Assembly: GCF_001613545.1 (NCBI RefSeq)
Contig: NZ_BDCO01000002.1
Span: forward strand, 1,116,001 to 1,180,000
Direction of reading: 5' to 3'
DNA: 64,000 nt
Origin: Terrimicrobium sacchariphilum
Lineage (GTDB): Bacteria > Verrucomicrobiota > Verrucomicrobiia > Chthoniobacterales > Terrimicrobiaceae
The translations under genes and the position numbers were made by a program. Within the stretch, counting starts at the first letter, position 1, and every line of letters starts with the position of its first letter. This document shows, one piece after another, positions 2,979-36,334 of the stretch. A model generated the notes under the pieces. That model did not search any database, was not told the DNA's origin, and saw only the letters and a list, made by a program, of their open reading frames with translations.

Positions 2979-4844
2979 TCAGGGCTTGAGCACCGAAACG
3001 CCGAGGATGCCGAGCGTGGTGGACTGCGCCGCGTCTGCCGTCACCTCGATATGGGTGATCGCGCCATCCGGCGATGGGTTGATCCACTCGAGCGTGTAGA
3101 GAAAGACATGGCGGCGGATCGCGTCGGCCGAGCCGTCCTCCAGCATCGGCGCGAAGCGGGAGTGCTGGAAATCGAAATGCGGATAGTCCGGCCACCAGTC
3201 CTGAATGTTGGCGGTTTGCAGCGCCTGCTTCATCTCACTCGGCGTGATCTCCGGCGGCGGCTTCCCGAGCGAGATGATCGGCACCTCGCCCAGTTTCTTC
3301 TTGCCGTTGTAAAACGAGTAGACGGCAAAGCGGTTGAGGAACTTTGAGTAGCCGCAGGCGTGCAGGATGTAGATCGCGCGAGCGGGCTGGTCGATGGGGC
3401 ACTTCACCTTGGTGGGGAGCTTGCGAGCCTTGCCCACCGAGTTGACCAGCGACTGGAGAACGATCACGCCGCAATCCTTCCGGTTGTTCCCGCCCCTGAC
3501 CTGAAACGGGATGCCGTGAATGGTATGCCGACCCGGCTTCAGGTTGCGCAGAGGCACGTCGCCCAGCCACCCGCGGCGGAAGTTGATGGGGCGATTGACA
3601 AATTCGCTGATGTCGATCGTGGAGAAGCGACTCTCGGGCACGTGCGCGCAGCTGTCGTATGGGCGCAGCCAGGCCATCTCGACATCCGCCTCCAGGCCGG
3701 GGTCAAATCCCCGGGTGTCGCTGGATCGGGCGGCCAGCGCGTTCTTGGAAAGCGTGGCGCGGGAACCGGGCGCGAAGGTCGTGGATTCGCGCAGGACGAG
3801 CTCCTGCTCGAGTCTCATGACCGAGGGACGAGGCAATATGCCTGTCTGCGCCTTGAGCGCCTGGGCGCGGCGCAGGAGGAAATAGACGGTCTCGTGCAGG
3901 AGAGTGATGTCGATGGCGGTCGAGCTGACGGAAGGAGTCGAGACGTGGAGGGCCTTGAAGTCGCCAAGAAAAACCACGGAGAGCCGCGACGGGACCTTTA
4001 CGCCATTGCGGGAGAGTTCGTCGAGGAAGTGCTGGATGGGGTATTCCTTGTCGGTGTAGACGACGAGGGCCGTGCAGTCCTTCCAGTCCCCCTTGAGCTG
4101 ACGGGCGAGCTTCTGGATTTCCTCGGGCATCAATTTCATGCCGGAGCCGGGAATGAAGCGATCCTCGGAGGTGGTGAAGCGGTACTTCCGGCACAGCCAG
4201 CGCCACTGGGAGAGAACTCCCATGGAGGCCGAGGTGCGAGGCGACAGGGCCAGGAGCGCCATGTCGGTGTGCCCGAGATCCGTCATCTGGCGAAAGATCA
4301 CCTCGAGGGCCTGGTCGTCGTCGCCGATGACAGAGGAGATATTGCGTACGCGATGGCCCACGCACACGACGGGAATATCCTGGTCTGCCAGCTTCGACGC
4401 GACTGTCTCCCACGCGGCGGAGTACGCCTCGGAGGGTGGAGCAAAGACCACGCCGGGGGATCGCTCATGCAGGAGACGCTTGAGGATGGCGACCAGCTCC
4501 TCGGTGGAATCCCACGGGTAGATCGTGGCCTGAATGCCCATCTCCTTGGCCACCTTGCGATAGCTCGGCAGATAGATGGACCGGCGCGCGACCACGACAT
4601 CACACGGATAGAGGCTTTTCTCCGGTGCTCGTTTTCCTGCGATGAAAAGCTTGTATCCCTGCCGGTCGACCATGCCCTGGAGGGCGAGATTGGTCATCGC
4701 GCGATTCAGCGCATAGTAGCGGATGCCGAGCTGCCCGCTCAGGATACGAACCGAAGGAAGACGGGATCCCGTGGGCAGGCCGCACGCTCCCAGCCATTCG
4801 CGGAGACGGTCCTCAGCCTCTTTGACATCGTGCCCGCAACTCAT
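2979..4844 (-). CDS. Hybrid regulator: GntR-type wHTH + LacI-type sensor + C-terminal carbohydrate-binding-like domain
   Basis: Predicted cytoplasmic transcription factor of 621 residues, with no signal peptide. Residues about 10-68 form a GntR-type winged helix (GSRLPSVRILSGQLG, then a wing ending GYKLF). Residues about 75-345 resemble the periplasmic-binding-protein sensor of LacI regulators (VVCVGHR, LGHTDMALL, LSVVFLGD). The last 210 residues, from ISEFVNRP, form an extra beta-rich domain with W-L-GD-PL, GRH-IHG-PFQV and DCGVIV, resembling NPCBM or jelly-roll modules usually found on secreted enzymes. A paralogue with the same architecture is encoded at 24887-26776, and the C-terminal domain is its best-conserved part. 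The gene is divergent from the PEP-CTERM gene at 5145. Confidence 0.8.
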   Translation of the reverse strand: MSCGHDVKEAEDRLREWLGACGLPTGSRLPSVRILSGQLGIRYYALNRAMTNLALQGMVDRQGYKLFIAGKRAPEKSLYPCDVVVARRSIYLPSYRKVAKEMGIQATIYPWDSTEELVAILKRLLHERSPGVVFAPPSEAYSAAWETVASKLADQDIPVVCVGHRVRNISSVIGDDDQALEVIFRQMTDLGHTDMALLALSPRTSASMGVLSQWRWLCRKYRFTTSEDRFIPGSGMKLMPEEIQKLARQLKGDWKDCTALVVYTDKEYPIQHFLDELSRNGVKVPSRLSVVFLGDFKALHVSTPSVSSTAIDITLLHETVYFLLRRAQALKAQTGILPRPSVMRLEQELVLRESTTFAPGSRATLSKNALAARSSDTRGFDPGLEADVEMAWLRPYDSCAHVPESRFSTIDISEFVNRPINFRRGWLGDVPLRNLKPGRHTIHGIPFQVRGGNNRKDCGVIVLQSLVNSVGKARKLPTKVKCPIDQPARAIYILHACGYSKFLNRFAVYSFYNGKKKLGEVPIISLGKPPPEITPSEMKQALQTANIQDWWPDYPHFDFQHSRFAPMLEDGSADAIRRHVFLYTLEWINPSPDGAITHIEVTADAAQSTTLGILGVSVLKP

Positions 4845-5144
4845 CCCGATTTTTTAAATATTATGATGAGCATTTGCAAGACACGAGATCGTGAGGGCTG
4901 CCATGGTTAGTGATACGAAGTGCCCCGTCAATAGTCCCCGGAACAGCCCCCTGAGTGTGTCAGTCGTCGGCTTCAGGCCGTAAAGCCTCGGCATAGTGTG
5001 GGAGCAGGGTGAGGTCCCCGCCTGGGATGGTTCGAAATTTTTAAAAAACCGGCATGTGTTTAGCTAGAGTTCCCGGGATTGCCGTTCCGCGACGAGGTGG
5101 AAGGAATTATTCACGCTTTAATCACCTCCACCCCCGAAATGATC
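4845..5144. other. Divergent intergenic region between regulator and PEP-CTERM gene
   Basis: No convincing gene. It holds two T6-A-rich elements (4850-4860 and 5037-5049) related to the one at 989-1005, a short palindrome CACGA-GA-TCGTG at 4882-4893, and presumably the divergent promoters. The T-run at 4850 lies only five bases before the regulator's start codon. Confidence 0.4.
5029..5050. promoter_or_regulatory. A/T-rich inverted element before the PEP-CTERM gene
   Basis: GGTT and AACC flank an AAATTTTTAAAAA core. On the minus strand it reads GGTTTTTTAAAAA, close to the element at 989-1005. Candidate binding site for the divergent hybrid regulator, based only on recurrence and position. 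Confidence 0.3.
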
Positions 5145-6638
5145 ATGAAGCACATCGCGACTCTTACTTTGAACAGTGCCGCCACCTGGACCCTGAGGAA
5201 GGGAATGACGGCCCTCCTGCTCGCAGGCGTTTGCGGCAGCGCCCTCACGACCGCGCGCGCCGCCAGCTATACCTTCGACGCCAACACCTCGTCCGCCGGA
5301 GTCCAGGACGGGGCGGGCACCTGGAACACCACGCTCTCGAACTTTTGGAACGGGACGAGCGATGTTAAGTGGCCTAATCAGGATACCGACGTGGCGGTCT
5401 TCGGCGCAGGCGGAGGCGCAGGCACCATGACCATCACGACGGGAACCGTGACGACCAATGGGATCACATTTGGGCCCGTGGCAGCCAACTCTCCCTATGT
5501 GATCTCAGGTGGCACGATCACGCTGGCTGGCGCGAACCCAACAATTACCGTGAACACGACCAATGGAGGGACCATCAATTCAACCCTTGTCGGCACCCAG
5601 GGTTTCATCAAGGCAGGTACCGGGGGGCTCACGATTGGAGCGACGGCTGATCTCAGCAGCCTTTCAGGAACAATCCGGGTCGACGCCGGGTCGATATTCC
5701 TGGCCGCCAACGGCGCCGCGGCAGCGTGGCAGCTCAATTCCAGTTCGGCTACCCTGGGGCTGTCCTCCTACTCGACCGTGAGCATCGGCGAGCTCTCCGG
5801 GGTCGCCAATTCAAGCCTTCGCACATCAGGTGGCGCTCCCGTTGGCAGCTATACACCGACAGCGTCGATCGGCGCCCTGAATACAAACTCCACCTTCGCG
5901 GGAAAAATCTACGGCACCATCGCGATCACCAAGGTGGGCACAGGAACCCTGACCCTTAGCGGCAGCGGTAATACCTATACCGGAGCCACGATAGTCTCCC
6001 AGGGAACGCTCCTGCTCTCCGGCGCGGGGGTGATCTCTTCCAGCAGCCCGTCCGTCGATGTGCAGAGCGGAGCGACGCTCGATGTGTCCGGAGTCACGGG
6101 AGGAGTCTATACTTTTGCCGCCGCCCAGCTCCTCAAGGGCGCGGGAACGATCAAGGGCAACTCCATCGTGAGTGGTTCGCTGCAACCGGGCAGTTCGCCG
6201 GGCATCCTGAGCTTTACCAACAACCTGACGCTGGCCAATACCACCCAGACCACGATCGACCTCGCCTCGGGAACACGCGGAACGAACTTCGACGGCATCA
6301 ATGTCGGCGGCGCTTTGGTCTACGATGGCACTCTGACGTTTTCCATCGGAGCGGCTCTGCTGAACGGCACGTATAACATCTTCGACTTCGCCAGCAAGTC
6401 GGGCGCCTTCGATCTGCTCGCCTTCAGCGGCGGCGTGTACGCGGGGACATTTGTCTACGACGGCACCGCGCTCTGGACGGCCACCGACACCAATGGCAGC
6501 GGTCAATCCTTTACCTTCGACCAGGCCAGCGGCGACCTGACGGTCGTGCCGGAGCCGAACACCTGGACTCTGGCTCTGTTTGGCGCGATCGCCGGGTTGA
6601 TCCTGATACGTCGCCGCAGGGATGCGGCTAAAGATTGA
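5145..6638 (+). CDS. PEP-CTERM surface protein with autotransporter-type beta-strand repeats
   Basis: Predicted exported surface protein of about 497 residues. The N terminus has a signal peptide (TALLLAGVCGSALTTARA, then a mature part starting ASYTFD). The body is a low-complexity, T/G/S-rich beta-helix with autotransporter-associated repeat signatures such as GTGTLTLSGSGNTYTGAT followed by SQGTLLLSG. The C terminus is a PEP-CTERM sorting signal: VPEPN, a hydrophobic helix, then RRRR. An exosortase would process it; none is encoded here. Start chosen at ATG 5145 to give a compact signal peptide; ATG 5139 is equally possible. The sialidase-like gene follows 33 bases later on the same strand. 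Confidence 0.85.
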   Translation: MKHIATLTLNSAATWTLRKGMTALLLAGVCGSALTTARAASYTFDANTSSAGVQDGAGTWNTTLSNFWNGTSDVKWPNQDTDVAVFGAGGGAGTMTITTGTVTTNGITFGPVAANSPYVISGGTITLAGANPTITVNTTNGGTINSTLVGTQGFIKAGTGGLTIGATADLSSLSGTIRVDAGSIFLAANGAAAAWQLNSSSATLGLSSYSTVSIGELSGVANSSLRTSGGAPVGSYTPTASIGALNTNSTFAGKIYGTIAITKVGTGTLTLSGSGNTYTGATIVSQGTLLLSGAGVISSSSPSVDVQSGATLDVSGVTGGVYTFAAAQLLKGAGTIKGNSIVSGSLQPGSSPGILSFTNNLTLANTTQTTIDLASGTRGTNFDGINVGGALVYDGTLTFSIGAALLNGTYNIFDFASKSGAFDLLAFSGGVYAGTFVYDGTALWTATDTNGSGQSFTFDQASGDLTVVPEPNTWTLALFGAIAGLILIRRRRDAAKD

Positions 6639-18272: not shown

Positions 18273-20981
18273 CTATTGCTTGGTCTTGAACATGCCAGCC
18301 CATCCGGCCCAAAGCTCATTGGTCTCCGGATTAAAGCGCAGCGTTTGAGGGCCGACATAAGGAATGTTTCCCGTGATGTCCGTCCAGGTGTCTCCTCCAT
18401 CGGTGGTCTTGTGGATTGAGCCGAGCCGGAGGTTGCCCCAGTTGGTTCGCGAGACCCAGATGATGTTCGGGTTGGTCGGGTGAACCTCGATGCCCACCAT
18501 GGCGCGCGGTTTCTCGGGGAAGTTGGTGATCCTCGTCCAGGTCTTGCCCTGGTCCTTGCTGCGCCAGAGTTGCTCGCCGGAGCAGTAGATGGTGCCGTCG
18601 GTGGCGACGACCACATTCCAGACAAAGACCTCATTGCGGAAGACCTGTTCCCAGGATTCCCCTCCGTCATTGCTGCGCCAGACGCCTCCCCCATTGCCGC
18701 ACGCACCCCAGAAGACGCGGTTGGAATCGGTGGGGTCCACGGCCAAGCCGTTGTACATCCGGCGGCCAGTGGGCTGGGAGGTGAGCTGTTTCCAGGTGGC
18801 GCCGCCGTCGAGCGACTTGAAGATGCCGCCGCCCATCTTGCCGGGCTCGGGATCGCCGTCGATGCCCAGGTACACGACCTGCGGATCATTCGGGTCCACC
18901 GCGAGAGCACGGGGATAGCCGCGGCCCCACATGGTATTTGGCATGAGCACGTAGTTCGGAATGCCCTCGCGGATCACCGTGAAGGTATTGCCATCATCCT
19001 CACTGCGGATGATGCTCTGCGGCTTGGCCGTGCTCCAGGGCGAGCAGGTGGAGATGACGCGTGTGCCGCCATTGACGTCATTGACGGCGAGACGCCAGTT
19101 ATGCCCGCTGAGGTCGTCCGTGTGCTTGAGTGGCCAGAGCTGTTTCCAGGTCTTGCCGTTGTCGGAGCTGACGAGACTTCCCTCATCCATGGCCGAGGCA
19201 TACACCTTGCCTTTGTGGAAACGGATGTCGGTGATGCAGGAGATATCCGCGCCACGGCAGCGCTCTGTCCAGACGGTTCCGCCATCGGTGCTCAGGCTGG
19301 GACGCCAGTTGGCGCTGAGGAAGATCTCGGAGGGATTCAGCGGATTGATGGCGATGTTGGTCGGGGCGCTCAGGCGCGCCGATTTGCCGTCCGCGGAAAG
19401 CATGTCCATGGTGGGATTACCGCTGGCCTCATCCAGGTCGATCTTGTTGGAGTATTTCCCCGCGGCGCCGCCCTCGAGGGCCTTTCCACTGGCCTGCCAG
19501 GTATTGCCTCCGTCCTCGGAGGAAAGGAAGACGCCCGTCCAGCTGGTCTTGCCGATGGCGCAGACGTTGAGCGGATTCGCCGGGTTCACTGCAATATCAA
19601 GCACGTCGAACTTGTCGGGGAAGCTGTCGGAGATTTTCTTCCACGTCGCGCCTCCATCGGTCGACTTCATCACGCCATCGGCAAAGAAGGAGCCGTAAAT
19701 GATGTCGGGATTTTTCGGATCAAAGGCGGCTGACGATGCCTTGGTGGGAGTCTGAAGTTCCTTCCAGGTCTTGCCTGCATCCTTGCTCATGACCAGCCCG
19801 AGGGCGGCAGTGGCTACAACGACCCGCGAGGGATCGCTCGGGGCCACGGCGACGGAGTAAAACGTGGAGGCCGGTGCATCTCCGAGATGAATGTTTCCGG
19901 CAGTCTGGAAGGCCTTGACTGCGTCGGGATCTGAGAAATCCGCGAGCGGAACGAGACGCGGTTCACTGCCGCCGCCAGCCGGAGCAAAGGCGAGGTAAAA
20001 CCGCTTTAGCCGCGCTACCGCCGGAGTGGTCGGGATCGGGCCGGAGCACGTAAGGTCAAATCGCGCGATGGATGCAAAGTCGGGATTCACCGGCTGCGAG
20101 GCGGCCTCGGGGTGGGCCTTCAAATACTGCGGATCGTAGACAAAATCCGACGCCTTGAGGACCACGTCGCTCCAGTTGGTATTCTGATAGAGCGTGTTGA
20201 GGTTCTTGCTGCGGTAGGCGATGCCGTCCTTGGTCTTCATGATGAAGAACGAGTCCTTCGGCAGAGTGCCGTCGCCTTTGAAGGTGAATCCGATGCCCTG
20301 GCTGTTGGCTCCAGATTCTCCCGCGGGGAGTTTTGGCATTAACGTAAGGGCGCCGAAAAAGGCGTTATTCACCTTCCCATACTGCACGCGCAGCACGCCG
20401 GGTTCCTCCTCCGGGGTCTTTTCCTCGTAGGCGACCGCCCAGGTCTGCCCGCCATCGGTGCTTTTATAGACTTTTCCCAGCGGGCTGGTCGCGTAGACGT
20501 TGCTGCCATTCGACGGGTCGACCGCTACGGAATGGATGCTCTTGTTCTTTTCGCCGGTGATCCGGAGATCGCTCTTGTCGGTGCGCGGGAGCGTCACCCA
20601 GGTCTCGCCCGCATCGGTGCTCTTGCAAAGCCCGCCTTCCGTCGCAGCGTAGACGGTGTCGGGATTACGCTGATCGACCGCGAGGGAGAAGACGCCGTAC
20701 GAGGCGAGCCCGTTGTTGATAAGCTTCCAGTTCAGCCCATGATCCTCGGTCTTGTAAGCTCCGCCGACATCACCGCCCATGTAAATGGTGCCGTCCTTGG
20801 CCGGGTGGTAGGCTGCGCAATAGAAGAAGCCGCCTCCGCCCCAGCCGGAATGCTCCCAGGTTGTGGAGGCGCCTGCGGCGTCGGCGGTCTGGGCCCGGCT
20901 GTCGACCAGGCCTGCCAGCGGCAGCAGCGCGACGAGCGGGAGGAGTTTGCGGACGAATCGAGAGGGAACGGATTTTCTCAT
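18273..20981 (-). CDS. Secreted GH74/VPS10-like BNR propeller protein with an inserted beta domain
   Basis: Exported protein of 902 residues with signal peptide (LLPLVALLPLAGLVDSRAQ). Many Asp-box repeats (STDAGETW, STDGGQTW, SKDAGKTW, STDGGATW, SEDGGNTW, SLDGGATW, SNDGGESW, TTDGGDTW) indicate two seven-bladed propellers as in GH74 xyloglucanases and sortilin-like proteins. Residues about 205-345, between FFGALTLMP and FYLAFAP, interrupt the repeats with a segment that has no Asp boxes and looks like a beta-sandwich sugar-binding insert. Catalytic aspartates of GH74 cannot be assigned by eye. It is the last gene of an operon with a dehydrogenase, an acetylesterase and a small secreted protein. 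Confidence 0.75.
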   Translation of the reverse strand: MRKSVPSRFVRKLLPLVALLPLAGLVDSRAQTADAAGASTTWEHSGWGGGGFFYCAAYHPAKDGTIYMGGDVGGAYKTEDHGLNWKLINNGLASYGVFSLAVDQRNPDTVYAATEGGLCKSTDAGETWVTLPRTDKSDLRITGEKNKSIHSVAVDPSNGSNVYATSPLGKVYKSTDGGQTWAVAYEEKTPEEEPGVLRVQYGKVNNAFFGALTLMPKLPAGESGANSQGIGFTFKGDGTLPKDSFFIMKTKDGIAYRSKNLNTLYQNTNWSDVVLKASDFVYDPQYLKAHPEAASQPVNPDFASIARFDLTCSGPIPTTPAVARLKRFYLAFAPAGGGSEPRLVPLADFSDPDAVKAFQTAGNIHLGDAPASTFYSVAVAPSDPSRVVVATAALGLVMSKDAGKTWKELQTPTKASSAAFDPKNPDIIYGSFFADGVMKSTDGGATWKKISDSFPDKFDVLDIAVNPANPLNVCAIGKTSWTGVFLSSEDGGNTWQASGKALEGGAAGKYSNKIDLDEASGNPTMDMLSADGKSARLSAPTNIAINPLNPSEIFLSANWRPSLSTDGGTVWTERCRGADISCITDIRFHKGKVYASAMDEGSLVSSDNGKTWKQLWPLKHTDDLSGHNWRLAVNDVNGGTRVISTCSPWSTAKPQSIIRSEDDGNTFTVIREGIPNYVLMPNTMWGRGYPRALAVDPNDPQVVYLGIDGDPEPGKMGGGIFKSLDGGATWKQLTSQPTGRRMYNGLAVDPTDSNRVFWGACGNGGGVWRSNDGGESWEQVFRNEVFVWNVVVATDGTIYCSGEQLWRSKDQGKTWTRITNFPEKPRAMVGIEVHPTNPNIIWVSRTNWGNLRLGSIHKTTDGGDTWTDITGNIPYVGPQTLRFNPETNELWAGWAGMFKTKQ

Positions 20982-21025
20982 GATGCGAAATATATGGTGA
21001 GGTGAAAGGGACGGGGTGAGGAAGA

Positions 21026-22039
21026 TCAGACTTTGGACCAGTCGAAGACGACGCCGGTGTAGAGGTCCTTCTGGTTGGCGAGACCCTCGTAGATCGAGTG
21101 GCAGTCGGCCGGGCTGACGAGGTGGGTGAGGAGCGGGGCGGTATTGAGCTTGCCCTGGGACATCATCCGCAGGAGTTGCCGCACGTTGTTCTCGATGGAG
21201 TGCTTGCAGAAGCCTGCCGGATCAGCCAATAGCGGATAACGCCACTCCAGGGCACCCTTGACCGTGGTCTCGGCATTGCAGAGATGGAGACCGCTCAGGA
21301 ACGGCGTGACATCCGCGACATGCGGAGCGCGCGGGCTGCCGAGCAGAACGATTTCGCCAAAGCGGGCGGCCAGCTGCGGGGCGCTTTCCATCGCCACGGA
21401 CGAAAGCCCGGTGGCCTCGATGACAGCGGCACACATCCTGCCTTCCGTGATGGCGGCTACCTGCGCCTTCATTTCCGGACCAGGAGCGATTGCATGCGGG
21501 ACGCCACAGGCCTGCGCCTGCTCGCGGCGACGGGCCGACGGGTCAATGCCGATGACCTCGCATCCCGCCAGGCCAAAGAGCTGAGCCGAGAGATTGCCGA
21601 CGAGGCCGAGACCGATGACCGCTACAAAGTCTCCCAGCTCCGCGTCCGAAGTCCTCGATGCCGCCATGGAAACAGCGGCCATGCGGGCAAACGTGGCCTT
21701 CACGGGGTCCAGGCCTTCCGGCACGGGAACGACGACAAACTCGCCGAGGATGTGCTTGGCGTGGCGGCCAAAGGAGAGGACGCGCTGGCCGACTGAGAGA
21801 TTCTTCACCTCATCCCCGAAAGCCACAACCCGGCCGACCGAACCATAGCCGGGAGAGAATGGCAGCGGCGCCCAGCTTTCCAGGCCGGCCCGGCAGGCCA
21901 GCTCGGTGCCTGCGCTCACGATGCTGTATTCGTTTTCAATCAACACGTCAGCCGGACGGCTGATCTCAGGCATGGGAAACTCCTCGAGCTCGGCGAGGCC
22001 GGGTGAGGGGAAGATAACGCGAACGGACTGGGTTTTCAT
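21026..22039 (-). CDS. Zinc-type MDR dehydrogenase (polyol/threonine dehydrogenase-like)
   Basis: Medium-chain dehydrogenase/reductase of 337 residues, probably oxidising a sugar or polyol with NAD(P). The N-terminal GroES-like lobe has SAGTELACR and FSPGYGSVGRVVAFG. The Rossmann motif VIGLGLVGNLSAQL is at about 140-153, followed by an acidic VIGIDPSARR strand end. The four-cysteine structural-zinc lobe is not seen and the usual GHE motif is replaced by PGYGSVG, so the metal site may be altered. It lies between the acetylesterase (24-bp gap) and the GH74-like gene (44-bp gap), so it probably handles a released monosaccharide. Confidence 0.75.
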   Translation of the reverse strand: MKTQSVRVIFPSPGLAELEEFPMPEISRPADVLIENEYSIVSAGTELACRAGLESWAPLPFSPGYGSVGRVVAFGDEVKNLSVGQRVLSFGRHAKHILGEFVVVPVPEGLDPVKATFARMAAVSMAASRTSDAELGDFVAVIGLGLVGNLSAQLFGLAGCEVIGIDPSARRREQAQACGVPHAIAPGPEMKAQVAAITEGRMCAAVIEATGLSSVAMESAPQLAARFGEIVLLGSPRAPHVADVTPFLSGLHLCNAETTVKGALEWRYPLLADPAGFCKHSIENNVRQLLRMMSQGKLNTAPLLTHLVSPADCHSIYEGLANQKDLYTGVVFDWSKV

Positions 22040-22063
22040 TGGATAAAAGGGCGAGGGACGCTC

Positions 22064-24085
22064 TCAGTACCTGGCGGACTGGGTCGTGATCGGAAAGTCG
22101 TCGGTACGGAAGGGCGAGGCTGGAAATCCCTCGGCGTTGTAAAGGTTGCAGGTCGGGTTACTCGACCAGGCGTAGCGCACGGCGACGGGTGACGGTACTT
22201 GCGGCGATGAGACAATGACCTCGCCGCCTTCGATCTTTGCGTCGGCCCATTTCCACTTGCGATCCTCGCCGCAGATGGCAAAGCCTTCCAGCTCGGAGGA
22301 ACTGTTGCGCACGGTCGGGGCTTTTGCTCCCGTCTCGGAATCGACGCTATAGGTCTCCGGCAGGGGCCTGGCGACGAGCCCACCCCCGGTGCCACTAAAG
22401 GTGAGGCGGATCTTGTCGCCGTCGACCTTCATCGACTGATAGACCGGGCCGGAGCCGACGATCTTGTGGCCATAGGTGCCGGCGAGAGCGAGCGCGGAGA
22501 GGCGTGCGCCGACATCCTTTTTATTGCGGGGGTGAATATTCACCGAATCACCCAGATCGATCAGCACGGCCTCACCGGTATTTGGCAGTGAGAGCGCCAG
22601 GGATTGTGCCTCCCGCAGTTCGGCCCAGTTGGAGTCTCCTGGTGCCGTTGGCTTGTCATTCTTGTTGGCGAGCTGGCAGATGTAAAAGGCAAAGTCGCCC
22701 TGCCCCCACCGGCTTCGCCAATCAGTGATCATCAGCGGCAGCGCCTTGCGATACTGATAGGCCCGCTCGATGTTGTTCTCTCCCTGGTACCAGATGACGC
22801 CTTGGATGGCGTATGGGATCAGGGGATAAATCATGGCATTAAAGAGATGGCTCGGTGCCTGCCAGGAGATCGGTTCCACTCCGGGAGGAGGAGGAAGCGC
22901 GGCGCGAGCCTCTGCGCTGAGCGCGGGAAACTGCTGCTCGACGCGTTTCATCCATGACCCCGGAATCGCGGGCCTTCCGATGGTGATATAGGAAACCGAA
23001 AGGTCGCTGGCTGGATGAGTGAAGCGGATGGCGAGAGTGGACTCCCCCGGTGCGAGGGCGGAGGTTGGCACGGTGTAGCGCCGCGGGGCGCGGGACTTCG
23101 CCGCCTCCTCAAGCGAGAAACGACCGATGGATTTGCCATTCCAGAAGACCTCCTCGATGCCCGCAGTCCCCTCGCCGACAGAGATCAGCAAAGGCCGGGC
23201 TGCCTGCTCGGGAGTGATCTCGACCGTGCGGCGCAGCCAGATTGCCCCGGCGTCTCCGAGCTTGCCGGGAACTGTTGCGGGCTGCCAGCTCTCGTCGTCA
23301 TCGGGCACCGTCCCGGCGGGCTGATCCTGCCGCTGGTTGGCATCCTGCCACTCCGACATGGCCAGCAGGTACTCGCGAATGCGGCGCGAATATGTCCGCA
23401 GATCCTCGTCCCGTTTCTCCATGCCAGAGGCGATCTCGGGGTCCGAAAGCAGCGCTTCCTTGCTCGTCCATGTCTCGATCGGAGTGCCTCCCCAGGCGGA
23501 AAGGATCATGCCCACCGGAGCCTTGACGCCCTCCTGGATGAACTTTCCAAAATAGTACGCGACAGCGGAGAAGCTGGCGATGGTATCCGGCCCCGCGATC
23601 ACCCATTTGCCCTGGTATCCCTTGATCGGAATGGCGGACTCGGCCTTGGTCACGACGAACAGACGGAACTGTGAATTGGTCGGAGCAGCCAATTCATTTG
23701 CGGCCTCCGGCGTTCTGGCCAGGGTCCACTCCATGTTGGACTGGCCGGAGGCGAGCCAGACCTCGCCGACCAGCACATCCGGGATGGTGACGGTATTTTC
23801 GCCCTGCACGACAAGATCAAACGGCCCGGCTGCGCTCTGGCTCAGGTCGAGCGCGACCTGCCAGCGCCCCTTGTCATCCGCGACGGTTCTCGCCACCGTC
23901 CCGCCCAGCGAGACTGTAATCTCGCGACCCGCATCGGCCTTGCCCCAGACCGGCACGCGTGCGGCCCTCTGGAGCACGGCGTGCTCGGAGAAAATCGCGG
24001 GCAGCTTGACCTCCGCCACGGCCATCGCAGCAGGGAAGGCAAGACCAAGGCATAGCACGATCCAAAATGGTCGTCTCATAAGCAT
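22064..24085 (-). CDS. Secreted sialate O-acetylesterase-like protein
   Basis: SASA-domain esterase of 673 residues. A signal peptide (WIVLCLGLAFPAAMAVA) leads into VKLPAIFSEHAVLQR, the usual start of the mature family. The nucleophile motif GQSNME is at about 114-119, with WYQGENN as the second block and DSVNIHPRNK as the distal acid/base block. A beta-sandwich insert lies between them, as in 13937-15853, but the present copy is exported. It stands second in an operon that starts with a small beta-sandwich protein at 24716. Likely role: removing O-acetyl groups from a glycan at the cell surface or in the periplasm. Confidence 0.85.
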   Translation of the reverse strand: MLMRRPFWIVLCLGLAFPAAMAVAEVKLPAIFSEHAVLQRAARVPVWGKADAGREITVSLGGTVARTVADDKGRWQVALDLSQSAAGPFDLVVQGENTVTIPDVLVGEVWLASGQSNMEWTLARTPEAANELAAPTNSQFRLFVVTKAESAIPIKGYQGKWVIAGPDTIASFSAVAYYFGKFIQEGVKAPVGMILSAWGGTPIETWTSKEALLSDPEIASGMEKRDEDLRTYSRRIREYLLAMSEWQDANQRQDQPAGTVPDDDESWQPATVPGKLGDAGAIWLRRTVEITPEQAARPLLISVGEGTAGIEEVFWNGKSIGRFSLEEAAKSRAPRRYTVPTSALAPGESTLAIRFTHPASDLSVSYITIGRPAIPGSWMKRVEQQFPALSAEARAALPPPPGVEPISWQAPSHLFNAMIYPLIPYAIQGVIWYQGENNIERAYQYRKALPLMITDWRSRWGQGDFAFYICQLANKNDKPTAPGDSNWAELREAQSLALSLPNTGEAVLIDLGDSVNIHPRNKKDVGARLSALALAGTYGHKIVGSGPVYQSMKVDGDKIRLTFSGTGGGLVARPLPETYSVDSETGAKAPTVRNSSSELEGFAICGEDRKWKWADAKIEGGEVIVSSPQVPSPVAVRYAWSSNPTCNLYNAEGFPASPFRTDDFPITTQSARY

Positions 24086-24125
24086 TTCGCAGGGGGAAGT
24101 ACGGGGTCGGTACGACAGCGGTCGG

Positions 24126-24716
24126 TCACTCCTTGATCACGCAATCGACGATCGAGAAGCCGGCGACCGGAGGCCCGAAGAACTGGATGCGCACGGCGGA
24201 GATGCTGGCCAGTTGATCCTGGTCCGCCAGCCCCTTGAGCGCCTCGGGCAGGCTCATCTTGATGGTATTGCCTGCCTCCGCTGCGCTGATGTCGCTCTTT
24301 ACGTTAAACTTGCCATGCACGGTCTCGCCCTCCTTTGTGAGAAAGGACAGGGCCACCTGCACCGGCTGCGGCGCGCTTGCGGCCTGCCCCTGCGCGTCCT
24401 TGCCGGGTTTGAAGGTGATCTCCAGCATGCCGCTTTCGCGGAGCTTGTCGGTCAGGTCGAGTCCGCTGCCCGGATTGGCCGAGAGCAGGACACCCCCGAA
24501 TGGCTGGACGCCATTCTGGATGCTCACCTCGAGCACGGTGGCGCGCTTGCCTGCCGCGTCGACCTGGAGGATCGTCGGGCCGGACCAGGACGAGGTCTTC
24601 CAGCCATCGGCCAGGCCGCTCTTGGAGGAGTACACCTCAAAGGGGGAAGCCGCGAGAGCCGCGGCGGACAACAACGGGAGGAGAGGCATCATTAAGCTAA
24701 TGGCGCGAAGTTTCAT
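24126..24716 (-). CDS. Small secreted beta-sandwich protein, possibly carbohydrate-binding
   Basis: Function not recognised; 196 residues. The signal peptide is MKLRAISLMMPLLPLLSAAALA, which fixes the start at 24716 rather than at the much longer open frame. The mature part (SPFEVYSSKSGLADGWKTSSWSG ... IRFFG-like strand, FSIVDCVIKE) has the pattern of single-domain sugar-binding or CIA30-like jelly rolls, with a predicted edge strand LASISAVRIQFFGPP. It is the first gene of the operon that ends at 18273 and faces the hybrid regulator at 24887 across a perfect palindrome. Confidence 0.6.
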   Translation of the reverse strand: MKLRAISLMMPLLPLLSAAALAASPFEVYSSKSGLADGWKTSSWSGPTILQVDAAGKRATVLEVSIQNGVQPFGGVLLSANPGSGLDLTDKLRESGMLEITFKPGKDAQGQAASAPQPVQVALSFLTKEGETVHGKFNVKSDISAAEAGNTIKMSLPEALKGLADQDQLASISAVRIQFFGPPVAGFSIVDCVIKE

Positions 24717-24813: not shown

Positions 24814-24829
24814 ATTTGTTTAAACAAAT
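24814..24829. promoter_or_regulatory. Perfect 16-bp palindromic operator candidate
   Basis: ATTTGTTTAAACAAAT is fully self-complementary. It lies in the 170-bp region between the divergent operon start (24716) and the hybrid regulator start (24887), so one bound dimer could control both directions. It is the best representative of a family of related sites at 8942, 18093, 26810, 36319 and 36534. Confidence 0.65.
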
Positions 24830-24886: not shown

Positions 24887-26776
24887 ATGGTCGCTCAAAT
24901 GTCCTATGGCGTAATACTGTCGGACTCCGTCCAGACCCTGCGACGCTGGCTGGAATCTTCAAATCTCTCCCCAGGAAACCGACTCCCCTCCGAGCGCGTG
25001 CTGGCCCGGGAACTCGGCTTGAAGCACAATGCCATCAATCGCGCAATGTCGCGCCTTTTGGGTGAGGGCGTGGTGCGCCGAGATGGATATAAACTTTTCT
25101 ACGCTGGCTCGGAGAAGCCGCTGGAGAGCCGCTTCGCCTGCGACCTGGTCATCGCGCGGAGGTCGTTTTTTACCAAGGGCTACATGAAGCTGGCAAAGGA
25201 GTTGTGTATCGATCTGCGGATTCACCCGTACGACTCCGGTGGTGAGGCGTTGAGCTATTTCTATCAGCTCGATACACCGGAGACGGAGTGCGTGATATTT
25301 GAGCCTCCGCATCTCATGACCGTCTCTCTTTGGGAGCCTGCGGTGAGGAAGCTTCTCTCGCACGACATTCCGGCCATCAGCGTTCGGCAGGCGGCTCCCG
25401 GCCTGCCCTGTGTTGATCCCGACTATACACGGGCGGTGGAGCTGGCCGTATCTCATCTCCGGGATAACGGACACCAGGAAATGGGCTTGCTCACGATCTC
25501 GCCACGCTCGGAGTCCGCGCGGGAGATCCTGTCCGCCTGGAAATCCCTGAGGCTTCAGAAAGGGCTGGCTGCCACGGCCCGGCGTATCGCCTACTACTCC
25601 GACGGGCGCGAGGATGACATCCAGATGATCGTCGAAAAGCTCGACAGCGACTGGCGGGGCGTGTCAACGCTCGTCATCTACGCCGAGCACGATCCCATCG
25701 TTCCTCATTTGCTGGAGCGCCTGTCGCGCAAGGGACTGCGTGTGCCGCAGGATCTCGCGGTGGTCTGCATCGGCGACCTGCCTCATCTCGCAGTGACGAA
25801 TCCTCCGGTCACCACGATCTCCTTTGACGCTCCGCTGATGCAGGAGGTGATCTTTGGCCTGGCGCAAAGGCTCACGCGCAGGCGACAGGATCTCCGCAGC
25901 CACTCCTCCGCGCCCAGGATTCGCGTGCAGCCTCATCTCATCCGGAGGGCGTCGACCGATGCTCCCGGTCCCATGCCGGTCCGGACGGCCTCGGCCTCCC
26001 GACGCGCTGATGTGTTGACTGCGGATCTGGCTGCGGCGCCGTCCGGTAGTACGGAGGATTTCACCCGGATGCTTAATCGCCGCTATCCGCTGACCTCGAA
26101 TGCCAATGAATCGCGTTTCGAGCAGATTGATATCGAGGCCTTCGTCAATCGCCCGCTGAATTTTCGCAAGGGGTGGCTTGGCGACCTGCCGTTGACGAAC
26201 TTTGCCACCGGAAGGCACAAGATCCATGGCGTGCCATTTCAAGTTCTCGGAGGCCATGCGCGCGAGGATTGTGGTGTGATCGTCTTTCGCTCCACGTCCA
26301 ACAAGACCGGCAATTCGCGAGTCCTGCCATCGCGTCTGCGCATCCCGATCGATACGACCGCGCTGGCCATCTACATCCTGCACGGCTGCGGCTACAGCCG
26401 ATACCTTTCGCCCTTTGCGCAATATGACTTCTATGCCGGCCGCAGGCACCTCGGCTCCGTGCCGCTCGTTTCGCTGGGCTATCCTCCGCCGGATGGAGAT
26501 ACGCGGAATTTTGAAAAGGAGGCGATGAAGGCCAATATCCAGGACTGGTGGTCGGACTTTCCGCATCTCGACTTTCCCCACGCCTGGAGAGCCCCGGTGA
26601 TGGAGGGAAAGACCGAGTATCTCGATCGCAACGTCTATCTCTATACGCTGGAATGGAGGAATCCTTTCCCGGGTCGCACGATCACTCACATGGAGATCGC
26701 AGTCGATGCGGAGAAGCCTACCACGCTCGGCGTGCTGGCCGTCTCCGCGCTCCGGCCGGAACCGGAAGAGGACTGA
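24887..26776 (+). CDS. Hybrid regulator, second copy: GntR-type wHTH + LacI-type sensor + C-terminal carbohydrate-binding-like domain
   Basis: Cytoplasmic regulator of 629 residues with the same three-part layout as 2979-4844. The winged helix is at about 10-70 (GNRLPSERVLARELGLKHN, wing ending GYKLFYAG). The sensor spans about 75-345 (FEPPHL, DNGHQEMGLLTISPRS, DLAVVCIGDLPHL). A variable linker follows, then a C-terminal domain from about 416 that keeps W-L-GD-PL, GRHKIHG-PFQV, DCGVIV, AIYILHGCGYS, NIQDWW and LYTLEW. The first and second copies agree better in this last domain than in the sensor. ATG 24899 is an alternative start. The palindrome at 24814 suggests autoregulation and control of the divergent operon. 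Confidence 0.8.
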   Translation: MVAQMSYGVILSDSVQTLRRWLESSNLSPGNRLPSERVLARELGLKHNAINRAMSRLLGEGVVRRDGYKLFYAGSEKPLESRFACDLVIARRSFFTKGYMKLAKELCIDLRIHPYDSGGEALSYFYQLDTPETECVIFEPPHLMTVSLWEPAVRKLLSHDIPAISVRQAAPGLPCVDPDYTRAVELAVSHLRDNGHQEMGLLTISPRSESAREILSAWKSLRLQKGLAATARRIAYYSDGREDDIQMIVEKLDSDWRGVSTLVIYAEHDPIVPHLLERLSRKGLRVPQDLAVVCIGDLPHLAVTNPPVTTISFDAPLMQEVIFGLAQRLTRRRQDLRSHSSAPRIRVQPHLIRRASTDAPGPMPVRTASASRRADVLTADLAAAPSGSTEDFTRMLNRRYPLTSNANESRFEQIDIEAFVNRPLNFRKGWLGDLPLTNFATGRHKIHGVPFQVLGGHAREDCGVIVFRSTSNKTGNSRVLPSRLRIPIDTTALAIYILHGCGYSRYLSPFAQYDFYAGRRHLGSVPLVSLGYPPPDGDTRNFEKEAMKANIQDWWSDFPHLDFPHAWRAPVMEGKTEYLDRNVYLYTLEWRNPFPGRTITHMEIAVDAEKPTTLGVLAVSALRPEPEED

Positions 26777-26849: not shown

Positions 26850-27173
26850 TTGTTTAGGATTTCAGCATGGGGAGAGGCGCTCGCAGAATGCAGGGAGATG
26901 TCCGCTCTTGGTTATGCAGCTCCCGCTGGTCGTCTCGACCATGCCCTTCTCGCTCCCTCCCTGACTCAGGCCGCGCTGCGCAAAGAGGGCCGGGAGTTGC
27001 GTCCCTATCCCGTCGCAAGGGTTTGCATCGAGCCGCATGCCGTCGGGCTGGCCGCGGGGGAGCGGGCGCTTCTCGACGGTGCACGCCAGGTGGACATGGT
27101 GAGCCGTCTCGCCGTCCGGCCCTCGATTCACCTTCGTTCGGAAATCGACCATTTTCTCACCCTATACCCATGA
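26850..27173 (+). pseudogene. DeoC-like aldolase remnant
   Basis: Open frame of about 107 codons that looks like a shrunken deoxyribose-phosphate aldolase. RLDHALLAPSLTQAALRKEG, then VARVCIEPHAVGLAA, match the N-terminal LIDHTLL and VCVxP-xxVxLA blocks of DeoC, and ALLDGARQVDMV matches the ADGADEIDMV block. The intervening VGFP-G segment is missing, as is everything after the DMV block, including the Schiff-base lysine, so it cannot be an active aldolase. No good start codon or ribosome site is visible (TTG 26850, ATG 26898). Its TGA overlaps the ATG of the GH28 gene in an ATGA, which could still serve translational coupling. Similarity was judged by eye. Confidence 0.5.
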
Positions 27174-28549
27174 ATCCCCTGGCCCATTTTTACCCCTCCT
27201 CGCTGCCTCGCTCCACTCACTTCCGCGCCACGGCCCAGGGGGTGGAGCTCGATGTGCTCGCTCATCCGTCTGCGGATCACACCTCTTTTGAATGCGACGG
27301 CCCGGTGACGATGGAGATCGCTTGCAGCGAGTCCCCCTCCGATGTGAAGGTGCGCCCGCTCCGCCTCGGCATCGAACCGCGCGTCGAGGGGAATCGTATC
27401 CGCTTCGTTGCCCCGGGTCCCCAGGCACTCCAGGTCGAGGTCGATGGTTGCAACCTGCTGTACGTGTATGCACTCGCCCCGGCCCGTCCGGCGCCGCAGG
27501 GTCCCGATGTGCGTGTCTTCCGGAGCGGTGCCGTGCATGAGGCCGGGCTGGTCGTGCTCAGGGATGGCGAAACCTGCTGGATCGAGGCGGGTGCCGTGGT
27601 GCGTGGCAGCATTCGCGCTGCAAATGGCTCGGGATTTCACATCGGCGGCTACGGCATACTCGATGGCGGATACTGGCCGGAGCACGAGGGCCGCTGCCGC
27701 AAGTCCATTGTCCTGGACCATTGCAGCGACTCAGTGGTTGAGGACATTCTCATGCTGGGTCCCACCAGCTGGATGCTGGTCCTCGGCGCGAGCGAGGATA
27801 TCACGGTCGAGGGCATCCGCCAGATCGCCGGCGACATGAGCTCCGATGGCATCGATATCGCAGGTTCGCGCAGGGTGCGCATCTCCGGCTGCTGCCTGCA
27901 TAACGGCGACGACAACATCGCCATCAAGGCGATCTGCAACAAGTCCGGGCAGGACGAGCGCGTTCCCCTCGGGTTCCCAGACGAGGACTGGGACCACACG
28001 GTCGAGGATGTCGTCGTAAGCGGATGCATGCTTTATAATACGCATGGCGGCTCCGCGATGGAGATCGGCTACGAGACGATCACCGAACATATTCGCAACA
28101 TCCGGTTTGAGAATATCGACGTCCTGGCGGTCCATCAGTTCGGCTCGGTCTTCGGCATTCACAATGGCGATCGCGCCCGGGTTGAGAATGTCGTCTGGGA
28201 TGACATCCGCATCGAGCATCACTTTGATACTCTGATCGATTTCCGCGTCCTCCGCTCGCGGTGGAACGTCGACGCCGAGCGCGGCTTTGTCCGCAACATC
28301 CAGATCCGCAATGTCGACGCCCTGCAAAGCGTTCACAATCCCGGCTACACCGTTAGCATTATCAGCGGGTACGACGCAGACCACCCGGTCACAGGGGTGG
28401 CGGTGGAGAACTTCGTGCTCGGCGGAAAACTGGTGCGCAGCGCCGATGATCTCGATCTCGTCACCCGCCACGCGCACGGGATCACCTTTCACGCCCAGCC
28501 TCCGACGCCATCCGCACCTCGCGCGAGCGAACTCCTCGCCACGCCGTAG
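27170..28549 (+). CDS. GH28-like (polygalacturonase-type) right-handed beta-helix protein
   Basis: Protein of 459 residues without a signal peptide, probably a cytoplasmic glycosidase for pectic or related oligosaccharides. GH28-type landmarks are SSDGIDIAGSRRVRI (canonical NTDG), NGDDNIAIK (canonical GDDC) and HGGSAMEIGYE (canonical GHG). The RIK motif is not recognisable, so specificity may differ from polygalacturonase. The start at 27170 is supported by homology beginning soon after and by the ATGA overlap with the upstream remnant; the open frame continues upstream without protein-like sequence. The dehydrogenase at 28656 follows on the same strand after 106 bases. Confidence 0.8.
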   Translation: MNPLAHFYPSSLPRSTHFRATAQGVELDVLAHPSADHTSFECDGPVTMEIACSESPSDVKVRPLRLGIEPRVEGNRIRFVAPGPQALQVEVDGCNLLYVYALAPARPAPQGPDVRVFRSGAVHEAGLVVLRDGETCWIEAGAVVRGSIRAANGSGFHIGGYGILDGGYWPEHEGRCRKSIVLDHCSDSVVEDILMLGPTSWMLVLGASEDITVEGIRQIAGDMSSDGIDIAGSRRVRISGCCLHNGDDNIAIKAICNKSGQDERVPLGFPDEDWDHTVEDVVVSGCMLYNTHGGSAMEIGYETITEHIRNIRFENIDVLAVHQFGSVFGIHNGDRARVENVVWDDIRIEHHFDTLIDFRVLRSRWNVDAERGFVRNIQIRNVDALQSVHNPGYTVSIISGYDADHPVTGVAVENFVLGGKLVRSADDLDLVTRHAHGITFHAQPPTPSAPRASELLATP

Positions 28550-29942: not shown

Positions 29943-32900
29943 TCAGGGCGAGAAGCGTTTCGCGCTCAGTACGCGGAAGCGATAAAACGAGTCGAGCGTC
30001 GGGTCGGTCGCCGAGTTGTTTGAGGAATAGACGGAAGCCGATGCATAATCGGGGATGCGCGTGTCGGCGGGATCGATGTACCGCTCGATCACCTGCGACC
30101 CCCGGTACTCGCTGGTGACGAGATCCTTGCCCTCGACCCAAGTGCCCGTATCGGTGCGGCTGGATTTCTTCAGCGTCTGCACACGGAAGTGCACCGTGTA
30201 CGTGTTCGACTTTGTCGTCAGCCGGGGATAGATCGTTGCGTAGGGTCGCTCCCGGCTGTTGTCGCCGGTTGGCCGGTGGGTGAGCCAATACGCCGCCATG
30301 CCGTTGTAGGTGGCATTCGCATTGTTGGGATCATTGGGCACGAGCGAGATGCCGCAGATTTCCGCCGCGGAGCGGAAGATGTCCTTCCGGTCGAAACGTT
30401 CGGTGAAGCCCTTGAGCGTCTCCTCCGCATTGATCGGATAGCGCACAGGCAGGGCGGCTTTGTTGCCGGAGTAGGATTTGTAGCGGGTGACATCGCTGTC
30501 GGCCACGGCGATAACCTTCTCCGACTTCAGGACCGCGCGGATGCCCGTATCGCGATTGATATAGGTAAAGGGCACGATCTGGTAATTCATGTTGATCCGT
30601 CCCGCGGTGGAGAGCGGTTCGCTGATCGGGTACGGCTCCACCACCGGCATGCTGAAGAGATCGAGCAGCAGATAGTCCGGCGGCACCGTAAAGGGAGGCC
30701 CGGAGACCGGCGTGCCGAGGCCGCGATGACCCTGTGGCAGCGGGCGAAACAGCAGCGTTTGCCAGGGCTTGTTGGCAAAGACCTCGCTGGGGAGGGAACC
30801 GAACGCCACGGCGGAGGGGATCTGCCGGTTCGGCGAAAAGAGCGTCATCGTCGTGTCATAGGAGGTGCTATGATACTGGTAGTAGGGCGTGCTCGTGCTG
30901 CTCGCGCGGCCATCTCCCTCATCCACCTTGTTGATATAGGGCCCGTCCGAGATATAGCCGAAGCCATTATCCCAGTCGCCCAGCACGGTGCTATTGCCTC
31001 CTCCCATTCGTACGCCCGCGTCATTGGGCGCGCGATAGCCGAAATCATAGGCGACCTGCATCTGCGAGTAGGGACGATAGGAGTCAAAACTGCCATTGCT
31101 GCTGGTGCCGATGCTGTAAGTCTGCGGATAGGTTACGTATCCCGACGGGTTGATCGGGAGCAGCTTCCCGGGAGTCGCGCCGAAGTACGGGTAGTTCATC
31201 GCCGTGCGCAGGGAATGCGCCATGAAGTTGCTCGGGCTGTCATAGTTGACGTTCCTGGCAAAGTAGGACGATGGGACATTGCTCTGGGCGGCGACCATGC
31301 GGGTGTCGCCCTCCGCCACCTCCACGCTCCGCACGACATCCGTGTACTTGCCATCTTCCCGTCGCCCGAGGATCCAGGAGACCGTTTGCCGTTGCCCGGT
31401 ATTTCCGAGATCACCGCGGGCATTGAGACGGCCTCCGTAGTGATTCGCCGCGTTATTCGGCCCGACAAAGGTGCGAAAGTCTCCGAAGACGACCTGTCCG
31501 CCATCCTCCGGGCGCGGGGAGGTCAGAGTGACCACCGTGTTGACCGGGGGGAGATTCGGCACCGGCCAGCCATCAGCCGGGGAGGAGGGGATGTCGATCG
31601 TCAGTTTCTGGATTTCGTTCGCGGGGGTCTGGTTGTCGAGGATGGTGACGGTGATGGTACCGCCGGTGAAGTTGAACTTGCCGCCGACTGGGAAATCCGA
31701 CGCCGTCTCGGTGTAGGCGATGAAGGGATAGACGTCCTGGGAAGTGGTCCCCAGTGTGCCCGATCCCTTGCTGGCGACAAATGGAGCCCAGCCCATCAGG
31801 CCGCCGACAAAGGTCTCGTTGACCAGCGCATCCCATACCGTGAAGGGATACGATTTCCACCCGCCGGAGGGATAGGCCTTGAATGTCGCCGAGGAGGGGA
31901 ACCCCTTCATCGGGACCGTTGGCGTGGTCGGGTCGGTCACGGGTCCCCATTGGAAATTGTTCAGCCCGTCGATCTTCACCTGAAACTTCGGATAAATGTG
32001 CATGAAGCCCCGCGATGGGTCGAAGAACTCCAGGAACAACCCGGCCTGCACCCGGATGTTGCCCGGCTTTACTCCGGTGGGGTTCGAGCTGGCATTCCAG
32101 GCATTCATCGTCACGGGAGGAGTGAGCGATGGGGAGTTTTCCGCGTTCCCGATGAACATGAGGAAAGCCTTGCTCACCGTGGGGAAACGCCCAAAGCCCT
32201 TCGTTCCTGTCTTTTTATCGACGATGGGTATTACCTGTCCCTGCCCGAGCTTTGTGGAATCACCGGGGGCAAAGGGATTGGCGACCCGGGTGTCGTAGAG
32301 ATTCGCGCTGCGGATGTAGTCAAATATCCCGGTGAGGATCTGGTCGCAGTCGGTGGCTCCCGAGGAGTTCTGCGTGTTGTATTTGCTTTGGAAATCCCCT
32401 CCGAATCCCGGGATGGGCTGCGAGGTGAGATGGCGGAGGTAATCCATGAGCATGCGATTGCGGCCGAGGCCGTTGACGGAGCTGGCCGTGGGCAGGTCGA
32501 TGGTGGGACTTTCGCTGCCGCGCTGGGCCGGATCGGTGCTGCGCTGGAAGAAATACTGGTATCCGTTGATGGTGGAGCAAAAGGCGATCTGCTGGTCAAA
32601 CACGCTGCGATTGCTGGCGCCTGTGCTGCTGCTGATCGGCCAGATGGCCACCCGTGGCTTGTTGAAGAGATTGACGTCGGGCGCGCGGCTGTTCGCCGTG
32701 AGGAAGAAGCGCCCCCGCGCGAGCTGCTCCTTCGTCAGCCCCTGCAGGGCTCGGGTGGACCCCGAGAGAGTGGGGGCAAAGATCAGTTCGTCGATCGTGG
32801 CATAGAGACGATCCGAGTCGAGGGAGAGCGACGGGATGGTGGACGCTCCGGTCTTCACCGTCTGTACGGTGCCGCCCTGCGACCCTCCGCCGACGATGCG

Positions 32901-33923: not shown

Positions 33924-33930
33924 GGCAGAG

Positions 33931-34995
33931 CTAGTTGGACTGCTCCCGGCTCCACTTCGCCGCCTTGAGGGCGACGTTCATGGTAAAGATCCGGTAGCTG
34001 AGGTTGAGTGATTTCAGGTTGCTCTCGAGCTGCTTCAGGTCACGGTCGTACATGTTGGCATTCGAGAATTCGCAGCCGGCATAGATGGGCCCCATGTTGG
34101 GTGGAGAGTCTCCGGTTTGCAGGCGGTTGAAGGATGTTTCATCGACCGCGACCATGGTTACCTGGACCACGGGCGGCAGCTGGTTCTTCGAGTTGATCGT
34201 GGGATCTGACTTCCCGACCGTGGAGTCGTAGAGATAGGTCGGCGCGAGCTTGGTGCCGGTCGTATCCTCCTGGCTCGAGAGTTTGGGGAGGAGGATGAGG
34301 GCGACGACATTCTCCGCCAGCACACGCACCGGCCGGGTGGACGCCGTGTACGGCGAGGTGCCATCGACGGCCGACTTGAACCACGAGACGCCATTGTAGC
34401 CCGCATTGCCGCCGGAGGATTTCTGGGCCTCATCGTAGAGAGAAAAGGACTCGGCCGGGCCCACGAGTTCCATCAGGCGGGAGCGATACCTTTCCCGGGG
34501 AGGGTTTGCTCCCTGGTTGACGAAGCCGGGTCGCCAGTCCTTGTCGCTGCCAAACTCGAGAAAAAATCCGCACGTGTTCAGCAGGGTGCCGAGGTCGGAG
34601 TAGTTCGTGTCATTGACATTGCCTAATGGGGCGGTGAAAAACACTCCGTGAGTCTTCGCATCCGGGTTGGAGAGTATGCTCGAGGCCGGTCCGCTCAGGA
34701 ACCTTAGCTCCGATTGCCGGGAGTACGTGGTCGGATTGTTGGGATTATCATAGTCCCAATACGGATTGAGCGTAGCCTGGCTTAGCTTGCTCGTGATCGA
34801 TTCAAACGCCTCCCGCGCGCCACGAAACTCCTCGATGCGCCCGCTTGCATATCCCCATGTCTTCCGGGTGGCGTCGATGATCGATGCGATGATCAGGAGC
34901 AGCAGCGCCAGGATCGCCACCGAGACGAGCAGCTCGATCAAGGTAAACCCCCGCAGTCGCCGGGGATGCGGGTCGGCTGCAAACACGACACTCAT
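33931..34995 (-). CDS. Verru_Chthon cassette protein C (pseudopilin-like)
   Basis: Protein of 354 residues with a type IV pilin-like start: short basic leader, RGFTLIELLVSVAILALLLLI. A prepilin peptidase would cut before the phenylalanine and methylate it. The body carries the cassette-C signature (ATLNPYWDYDN, then SELRFLSGPA) and ends with a region expected to lie outside the membrane. Its ATG overlaps the stop codon of gene B as ATGA, which indicates coupled translation and fixes the start. Length and organisation match a minor-pseudopilin role, comparable to GspJ-type proteins but longer. Confidence 0.85.
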   Translation of the reverse strand: MSVVFAADPHPRRLRGFTLIELLVSVAILALLLLIIASIIDATRKTWGYASGRIEEFRGAREAFESITSKLSQATLNPYWDYDNPNNPTTYSRQSELRFLSGPASSILSNPDAKTHGVFFTAPLGNVNDTNYSDLGTLLNTCGFFLEFGSDKDWRPGFVNQGANPPRERYRSRLMELVGPAESFSLYDEAQKSSGGNAGYNGVSWFKSAVDGTSPYTASTRPVRVLAENVVALILLPKLSSQEDTTGTKLAPTYLYDSTVGKSDPTINSKNQLPPVVQVTMVAVDETSFNRLQTGDSPPNMGPIYAGCEFSNANMYDRDLKQLESNLKSLNLSYRIFTMNVALKAAKWSREQSN

Positions 34996-36195: not shown

Positions 36196-36318
36196 CAAGG
36201 GACACAGAACCACATCTGAATTCGTGGGAGGAATCATGGGGGAAAGCTGCATGGGAATATCCTATGGAAATTTTTCAAACACCAGACACTGCTGGAATCG
36301 AATCCGGGATTTTCGTCG

Positions 36319-36334
36319 ATTTGTTTAAATAATT
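36319..36334 (+). promoter_or_regulatory. Operator-like site, TTTGTTT family
   Basis: ATTTGTTTAAATAATT matches the perfect palindrome at 24814 in 14 of 16 bases. It is located 124 bp upstream of the first Verru_Chthon cassette gene. Confidence 0.45.

Follow-up and report, generated by a model that had tools for sequence, protein, structure and literature searches.

A module shared with secreted enzymes of Verrucomicrobiota may act as the sensor of AraR-like transcriptional regulators

Two regulators encoded in the window (the whole stretch of 64,000 nucleotides of Terrimicrobium sacchariphilum DNA analysed here) carry, behind a GntR winged helix and a LacI-type sensor, a C-terminal domain (CTD) that is homologous to modules found on secreted enzymes. 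While heads of this kind are known, the CTD belongs to an uncatalogued family, and the fusion of the two is without precedent in the literature searched. We propose that these proteins are probably, if only by a little, AraR-like cytoplasmic one-component repressors in which ligand input has moved wholly, mainly or in part to the CBM-like CTD, and that this borrowed domain may be their real sensor. If true, a sugar repressor has been re-aimed by adding a module of the type carried by the organism's own secreted enzymes, without the usual membrane sensor. The analysis also names an uncatalogued domain common on extracellular enzymes of Verrucomicrobiota, and gives a first point from which regulation of the prepilin-like Verru_Chthon cassette can be tested; our literature search found no paper on that cassette. 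The two genes and their C-terminal modules are located as follows:

2979..4844, minus strand: P0001, 621 aa, one continuous frame (Pfam, alignment, AlphaFold2)
2982..3635, minus strand: CTD module of P0001, residues 404-621 (alignments and AlphaFold2)
24887..26776, plus strand: P0002, paralogue of P0001 with identical domain order, 629 aa, one continuous frame
26108..26773, plus strand: CTD module of P0002, residues 408-629 (alignments)

Both frames had been described in an earlier note as paralogues joining a GntR head and a LacI-type sensor to an extra C-terminal domain. Both are present, they share 41% identity and can be aligned end to end, and every motif quoted for the extra domain is present. 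For P0002, the ATG equivalent to position 24899 is the conserved start in the close relatives L036 and L037. A Pfam scan places PF00392 (GntR winged helix) above cut-off in both proteins, with PF13377 (Peripla_BP_3, a LacI/GalR-type fold) following the HTH. In P0001, the winged helix spans residues ~8-62, the LacI-type sensor ~78-356 and the CTD ~404-621, with a disordered linker at ~357-403 (362-385 in the full-length model). The extra domain is therefore a separate C-terminal unit as suggested, but it begins near residue 404 rather than 412 and comprises ~218 residues. A third paralogue, P0003 (636 aa; G000:C2:1200922-1201554; CTD 36% identical), lies 80 kb away on the same contig. Hydropathy analysis revealed no signal peptide or transmembrane segment in P0001-P0003. 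The full-length AlphaFold2 model of P0001 contains the LacI-type core; as its overall pTM is low, we make no claim about the placement of the domains relative to each other.

No Pfam family was detected in the C-terminal ~225 aa of P0001 or P0002, searches of the CTD against Pfam, NCBIfam and PHROG gave nothing beyond chance, and the CTD and all 52 relatives lacked Pfam matches other than at chance level. Sequence searches of the PDB, using a narrow as well as a broad profile set, yielded nothing real (a single 60S ribosomal protein came up, at E 0.66). A viral fold library gave only long, weak matches. NPCBM, put forward previously as a likely identity, is not borne out, as neither it nor any other Pfam domain matched; no known regulator effector family did so either. 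AlphaFold2 prediction of P0001 residues 393-621 with 17 related sequences produced a confident 12-stranded beta-sandwich (pLDDT 82.6, pTM 0.84), in keeping with the separate beta-rich domain read from the sequence. The closest solved fold is that of AziU3/AziU2 from Streptomyces sahachiroi (7wuw, 8gs1; Z 12.6-12.8, ~165 residues aligned), which clearly outscores all other matches, yet identity is only ~16% and there is no significant sequence match. AziU3/AziU2 belongs to an enzyme complex that makes an antibiotic and is not a regulator domain. The beta-sandwich CBMs (CBM4, 8, 29, 86) are of similar size and are often appended to glycoside hydrolases, but have no sequence match to the CTD and only background-level fold likeness (CBM8 Z 7.9, CBM86 Z 7.2, CBM29 Z 7.0). 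Because a Z of 7-8 is reached by many unrelated sandwiches, the predicted fold fits a CBM-like module without proving carbohydrate binding. Of the jelly-roll match anticipated earlier, the beta-sandwich fold is found, but the best match is AziU3/U2 rather than a CBM.

A profile built from the three CTDs of P0001-P0003 was searched against 388 genomes of the Verrucomicrobiota phylum, 64 of which contain the module. The GntR/LacI fusion itself is found in three of the 388 (this genome, G045 with four copies and G078 with two), and a species-genome scan identified fusions in seven further assemblies (Spartobacteria, Opitutaceae, Rariglobus, Puniceicoccaceae and unclassified Verrucomicrobia). Many orthologues with GntR heads, named in the earlier note as support for its reading, therefore exist, and the fusion is not restricted to this genome. 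Our comparison set consists of 20 full-length fusions from several Verrucomicrobiota families; all 20 have the ~218-aa CTD after the effector domain. No paper on fusions of the CTD module to regulators was found in the open-access literature searched (subscription papers were outside its scope). A second type of head also carries the module:

L047:4981-6564: AraC-type HTH regulator ending in the CTD module
L061:2-1780: AraC-type HTH regulator ending in the CTD module

In most other genomes the module is located on larger proteins, often with a signal peptide by inspection. Carriers include parallel beta-helix, GH20, GH2 and alkaline-phosphatase-like proteins as well as LamG proteins with a GH39-like region, and the module also occurs alone in a 274-aa secreted protein (L062). 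Its placement on secreted proteins (C-terminal, N-terminal, internal or alone) is as expected for a mobile binding module. Matches on secreted proteins reach E 1e-7 to 1e-88 within the set searched, using an alignment of regulators and near relatives, and whole-domain homology is seen by alignment as well as in profile matches that span the full length of the module, at E values down to 1e-12. The alkaline-phosphatase-like carriers were missed by the regulator profile and picked up by a broader one. As a single hmmsearch recovers all but the alkaline-phosphatase-like set, and the broader profile recovers that set, homology between the CTD and this uncatalogued ~210-aa module of secreted Verrucomicrobiota (including Lentisphaerota) enzymes is not in doubt. 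The kinship with domains of secreted carbohydrate-active enzymes that had been suspected from the sequence is supported, with GH2, GH20, beta-helix and phosphatase-like proteins among the carriers. Those proteins act outside the cell and have secretion signals, in contrast to the regulators, which have none. In a tree of 52 modules, all regulator modules share a branch with secreted beta-helix modules (100/98), nested among the wider secreted modules; its fine order is weak, and neither a single versus double origin of the GntR fusion nor the placement of the AraC fusions is settled. As the best explanation, the CTD was drawn from the stock of modules that secreted proteins for polysaccharide processing carry.

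Further ~600-aa frames from the phylum scan, considered as regulator fusions, were rejected because they encode secreted enzymes; in several of these the module is followed by an alkaline-phosphatase-like part. In L102-L106 (G156, G280, G101, G070 and G011), the module lies on the N-terminal side of secreted alkaline-phosphatase-like proteins ('NIIFIIGDGMGQG'). Two frames of the T. sacchariphilum genome, L063 (1178 aa) and L064 (1167 aa), are apparently secreted and contain weak, partial copies of the module.

Conservation differs strongly between the domains. Identity between P0001 and P0002 is 46% for the HTH, 31% for the sensor, 15% for the linker and 56% for the CTD, and an alignment of 13 regulators has 38 invariant columns out of 218 in the CTD versus 5 out of 279 in the sensor, the least conserved folded domain. 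The stronger conservation of the extra domain relative to the sensor, first judged by eye, is therefore correct. Invariant CTD loop residues include N417, R418, W426, G428, H443, N546, D549, W550 and W551, while most positions invariant across the family (N-P-x-P, G, L) appear structural. The CTD would now seem to be the most constrained domain of the fused proteins.

R197 of LacI contacts the inducer. An alignment to LacI, ancestral LacI and CcpA places V, I, M, F or W at the equivalent position in all 20 fusions. Among 28 other PF13377 proteins encoded by this genome, 27 have Arg there. The Arg is also retained, as read from their sequences, in two CTD-less GntR/LacI proteins located close to fused ones. 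The D274-equivalent is likewise replaced in 20/20 fusions, but also in 12/28 controls; the canonical sugar contacts (R197 and D274, LacI numbering) are thus missing from the LacI-type cleft of the fusions. Loss of D274 and N246 was considered as a sign of a dead sensor and rejected, as both vary in the in-genome controls too, leaving R197 alone to discriminate fusions from controls. This suggests a change of function for the classical sugar cleft of the fused proteins. Since the R197-equivalent is lost in every fusion, the sensor may serve for dimerisation and signal transmission as opposed to being a second sugar input. CcpA carries Lys at this position, and another effector in the LacI cleft would be compatible with the loss of R197.

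In a two-input reading, the LacI-like domain would still bind a small effector, non-canonically, with a larger saccharide as the second ligand, bound by the CTD. In favour of this, the fold of the sensor is intact (Z ~24 to CcpA, LacI and PurR, with AraR 3tb6 tied at Z 23.6) and is retained in all three genomic copies, and the homology of the CTD to secreted modules applies likewise. However, the sparse invariance of the sensor and the uniform loss of the R197-equivalent weigh against this reading, and the two-input control put forward in the earlier note is doubtful.

The best-known relative of the GntR/LacI head is AraR, even though its fold score is tied with those of CcpA, LacI and PurR; the LacI-type sensor has a profile match to 3tb6 at E 1.7e-16. 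AraR of Bacillus subtilis has the same head, a GntR winged helix followed by a GalR/LacI-type effector domain, and governs genes for sugar-polymer utilisation (PMC4218819), a likeness to the putative targets here. Its last domain is the LacI-type one, to which L-arabinose binds, whereas the fusions add the ~218-aa CTD and are without the canonical sugar-contact Arg. The neighbouring genes and operator-like sites in the window are:

5034..5050, minus strand: GGTTTTTTAAAAATTTC, exact, candidate P0001-type operator in the region that separates P0001 from the PATR/PEP-CTERM gene
5079..6638, plus strand: PATR/PEP-CTERM secreted protein, divergent from P0001 (PF12951, PF07589)
18273..24716, minus strand: divergent putative operon and putative target, with a small secreted protein, SASA-type esterase, Zn-ADH-like protein and BNR/sortilin protein (Pfam; GH74-like label by inspection)
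24814..24829, unstranded: ATTTGTTTAAACAAAT, perfect palindrome, putative operator in the region that separates P0002 from the divergent carbohydrate operon
26867..28549, plus strand: GH28 family protein downstream of P0002 (PF00295)
29943..36252, minus strand: complete prepilin-like Verru_Chthon cassette D-B-C-A, putative target (TIGR02596, TIGR02598, TIGR02599 and TIGR02600, all above cut-off)
36267..36283, minus strand: weak P0001-type site, 2-mismatch copy in the cassette promoter
36319..36334, unstranded: second operator-like site, with 2 mismatches, upstream of the Verru_Chthon cassette at a distance of ~67 bp
36534..36549, unstranded: third operator-like site TTTTGTTTGAACAAAA, 3 mismatches, same cassette promoter region

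The GH28 side of P0002 also contains a Gfo/Idh-like protein (by inspection). GH28 homologues recur in 7/20 regulator loci, the AraC-CTD locus L061 among them, relatives of the BNR protein in 5/20 and of the esterase in 6/20, although these 20 loci are not all independent, as four are close relatives of the window. The GH28 protein adjoining the L061 regulator is 57% identical to that of the window, and a second, similar prepilin-like cluster (L056:12151-16004) adjoins P0003.

By position and by enrichment, a 16-bp palindromic operator-like sequence marks the putative target promoters of P0002. With up to 3 mismatches, ATTTGTTTAAACAAAT has four sites in the 4.75-Mb genome, three of them inside the 64-kb window, and the 234 kb of regulator loci contain ten palindrome sites versus 0.23 in shuffles. 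Several lie before the regulator gene itself; others precede autotransporter-like genes (L039, L053), a cassette A gene (L050) and a GH74-like gene (L039). The exact palindrome occurs in G388 and in G389, a relative, and G389 has a similar pair of sites with the same 215-bp spacing that separates the cassette-promoter sites at 36319 and 36534. Several of the regulator loci searched have no palindrome, and no shared operator was found for P0003. The AraR box is also a 16-bp palindrome, with the consensus At(T/A)tGTaCGTAcaa(A/T)T and with arms identical to those of ATTTGTTTAAACAAAT (ATTTGT...ACAAAT), and some AraR promoters contain two boxes, as does the region before the Verru_Chthon cassette here (PMC4218819). 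At the level of sequence, these patterns support the putative DNA recognition and targets of the regulators, with weaker evidence for GGTTTTTTAAAAATTTC as the candidate P0001 operator.

We envisage that the GntR winged helix grips the 16-bp palindrome as a dimer, which the LacI-type domain would hold together, and that the CTD, on its disordered linker, would provide the main ligand input. An imported oligosaccharide or related catabolite might bind the conserved CTD loops, and the ligand-bound protein would presumably alter its hold on DNA, leading to de-repression. Genes responding in this manner would include those whose products degrade polysaccharides (GH28, GH74-like, esterase), together with those for the extracellular PATR and Verru_Chthon prepilin-like proteins. 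The ECF52/ECF53 sigma factors, which have fused glycosyl hydrolase or carbohydrate-binding domains (PMC10766802), also link transcription control to a carbohydrate-active domain, but these span the membrane, whereas the proteins described here are soluble and resemble one-component repressors. More tentatively, and on balance short of probable, we suggest a fuller scheme: the LacI-type sensor demoted to a scaffold, sensing taken over by a secreted-enzyme module, a second recruitment of that module onto AraC heads, and control of Verru_Chthon cassettes that ties these to polysaccharide use.

A higher oligomer could loop the DNA between the paired sites, which lie 215 bp apart upstream of the cassette, and many conserved CTD residues appear structural; both fit a CTD that serves as an oligomerisation or structural domain without ligand, like the C-terminal tetramerisation element of LacI. 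We regard this as unlikely, as a shared oligomer role sits poorly with a module that is present on unrelated secreted enzymes, alone in L062 and on AraC regulators. Less probable again is a CTD that docks a partner protein (a pathway enzyme or transporter) and so reports flux rather than sugar: beta-sandwich domains often bind proteins, and Eph-type and adhesin structures are among the CTD fold matches (Z ~7), but the regulators do not all have one and the same intracellular partner gene as a neighbour. Chance or an artefact (a mispredicted two-gene fusion or misassembly) has nothing in its favour and is excluded by the orthologues and paralogues in many genomes, with single open frames free of internal stops in 20 homologues from many independent assemblies.

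A possible specificity code may reside in the HTH motif P-S-E-R, on the basis of comparison by eye. Its Glu is present in all regulators whose loci hold an GTTTAAAC-type site (P0002, L039, L050, L051, L053 and L055), and regulators with another residue in its place have loci without such a site. The site is absent for P0001, L041, L042, L044, L045 and L056; L038, L040, L052 and L054 have the Glu without the site. In AraR, E30 contacts base T6 (PMC4218819).

Beyond the cassette, the window contains a distant relative of beta-1,2-mannobiose phosphorylase (GH130-like, below family cut-offs; 36689-37906, minus strand), followed by two adjacent divergent regulators (39508-40737, plus strand; 40792-42015, minus strand) that combine a LacI-type sensor with an AraC-like C-terminal HTH and are XylR-like by inspection.
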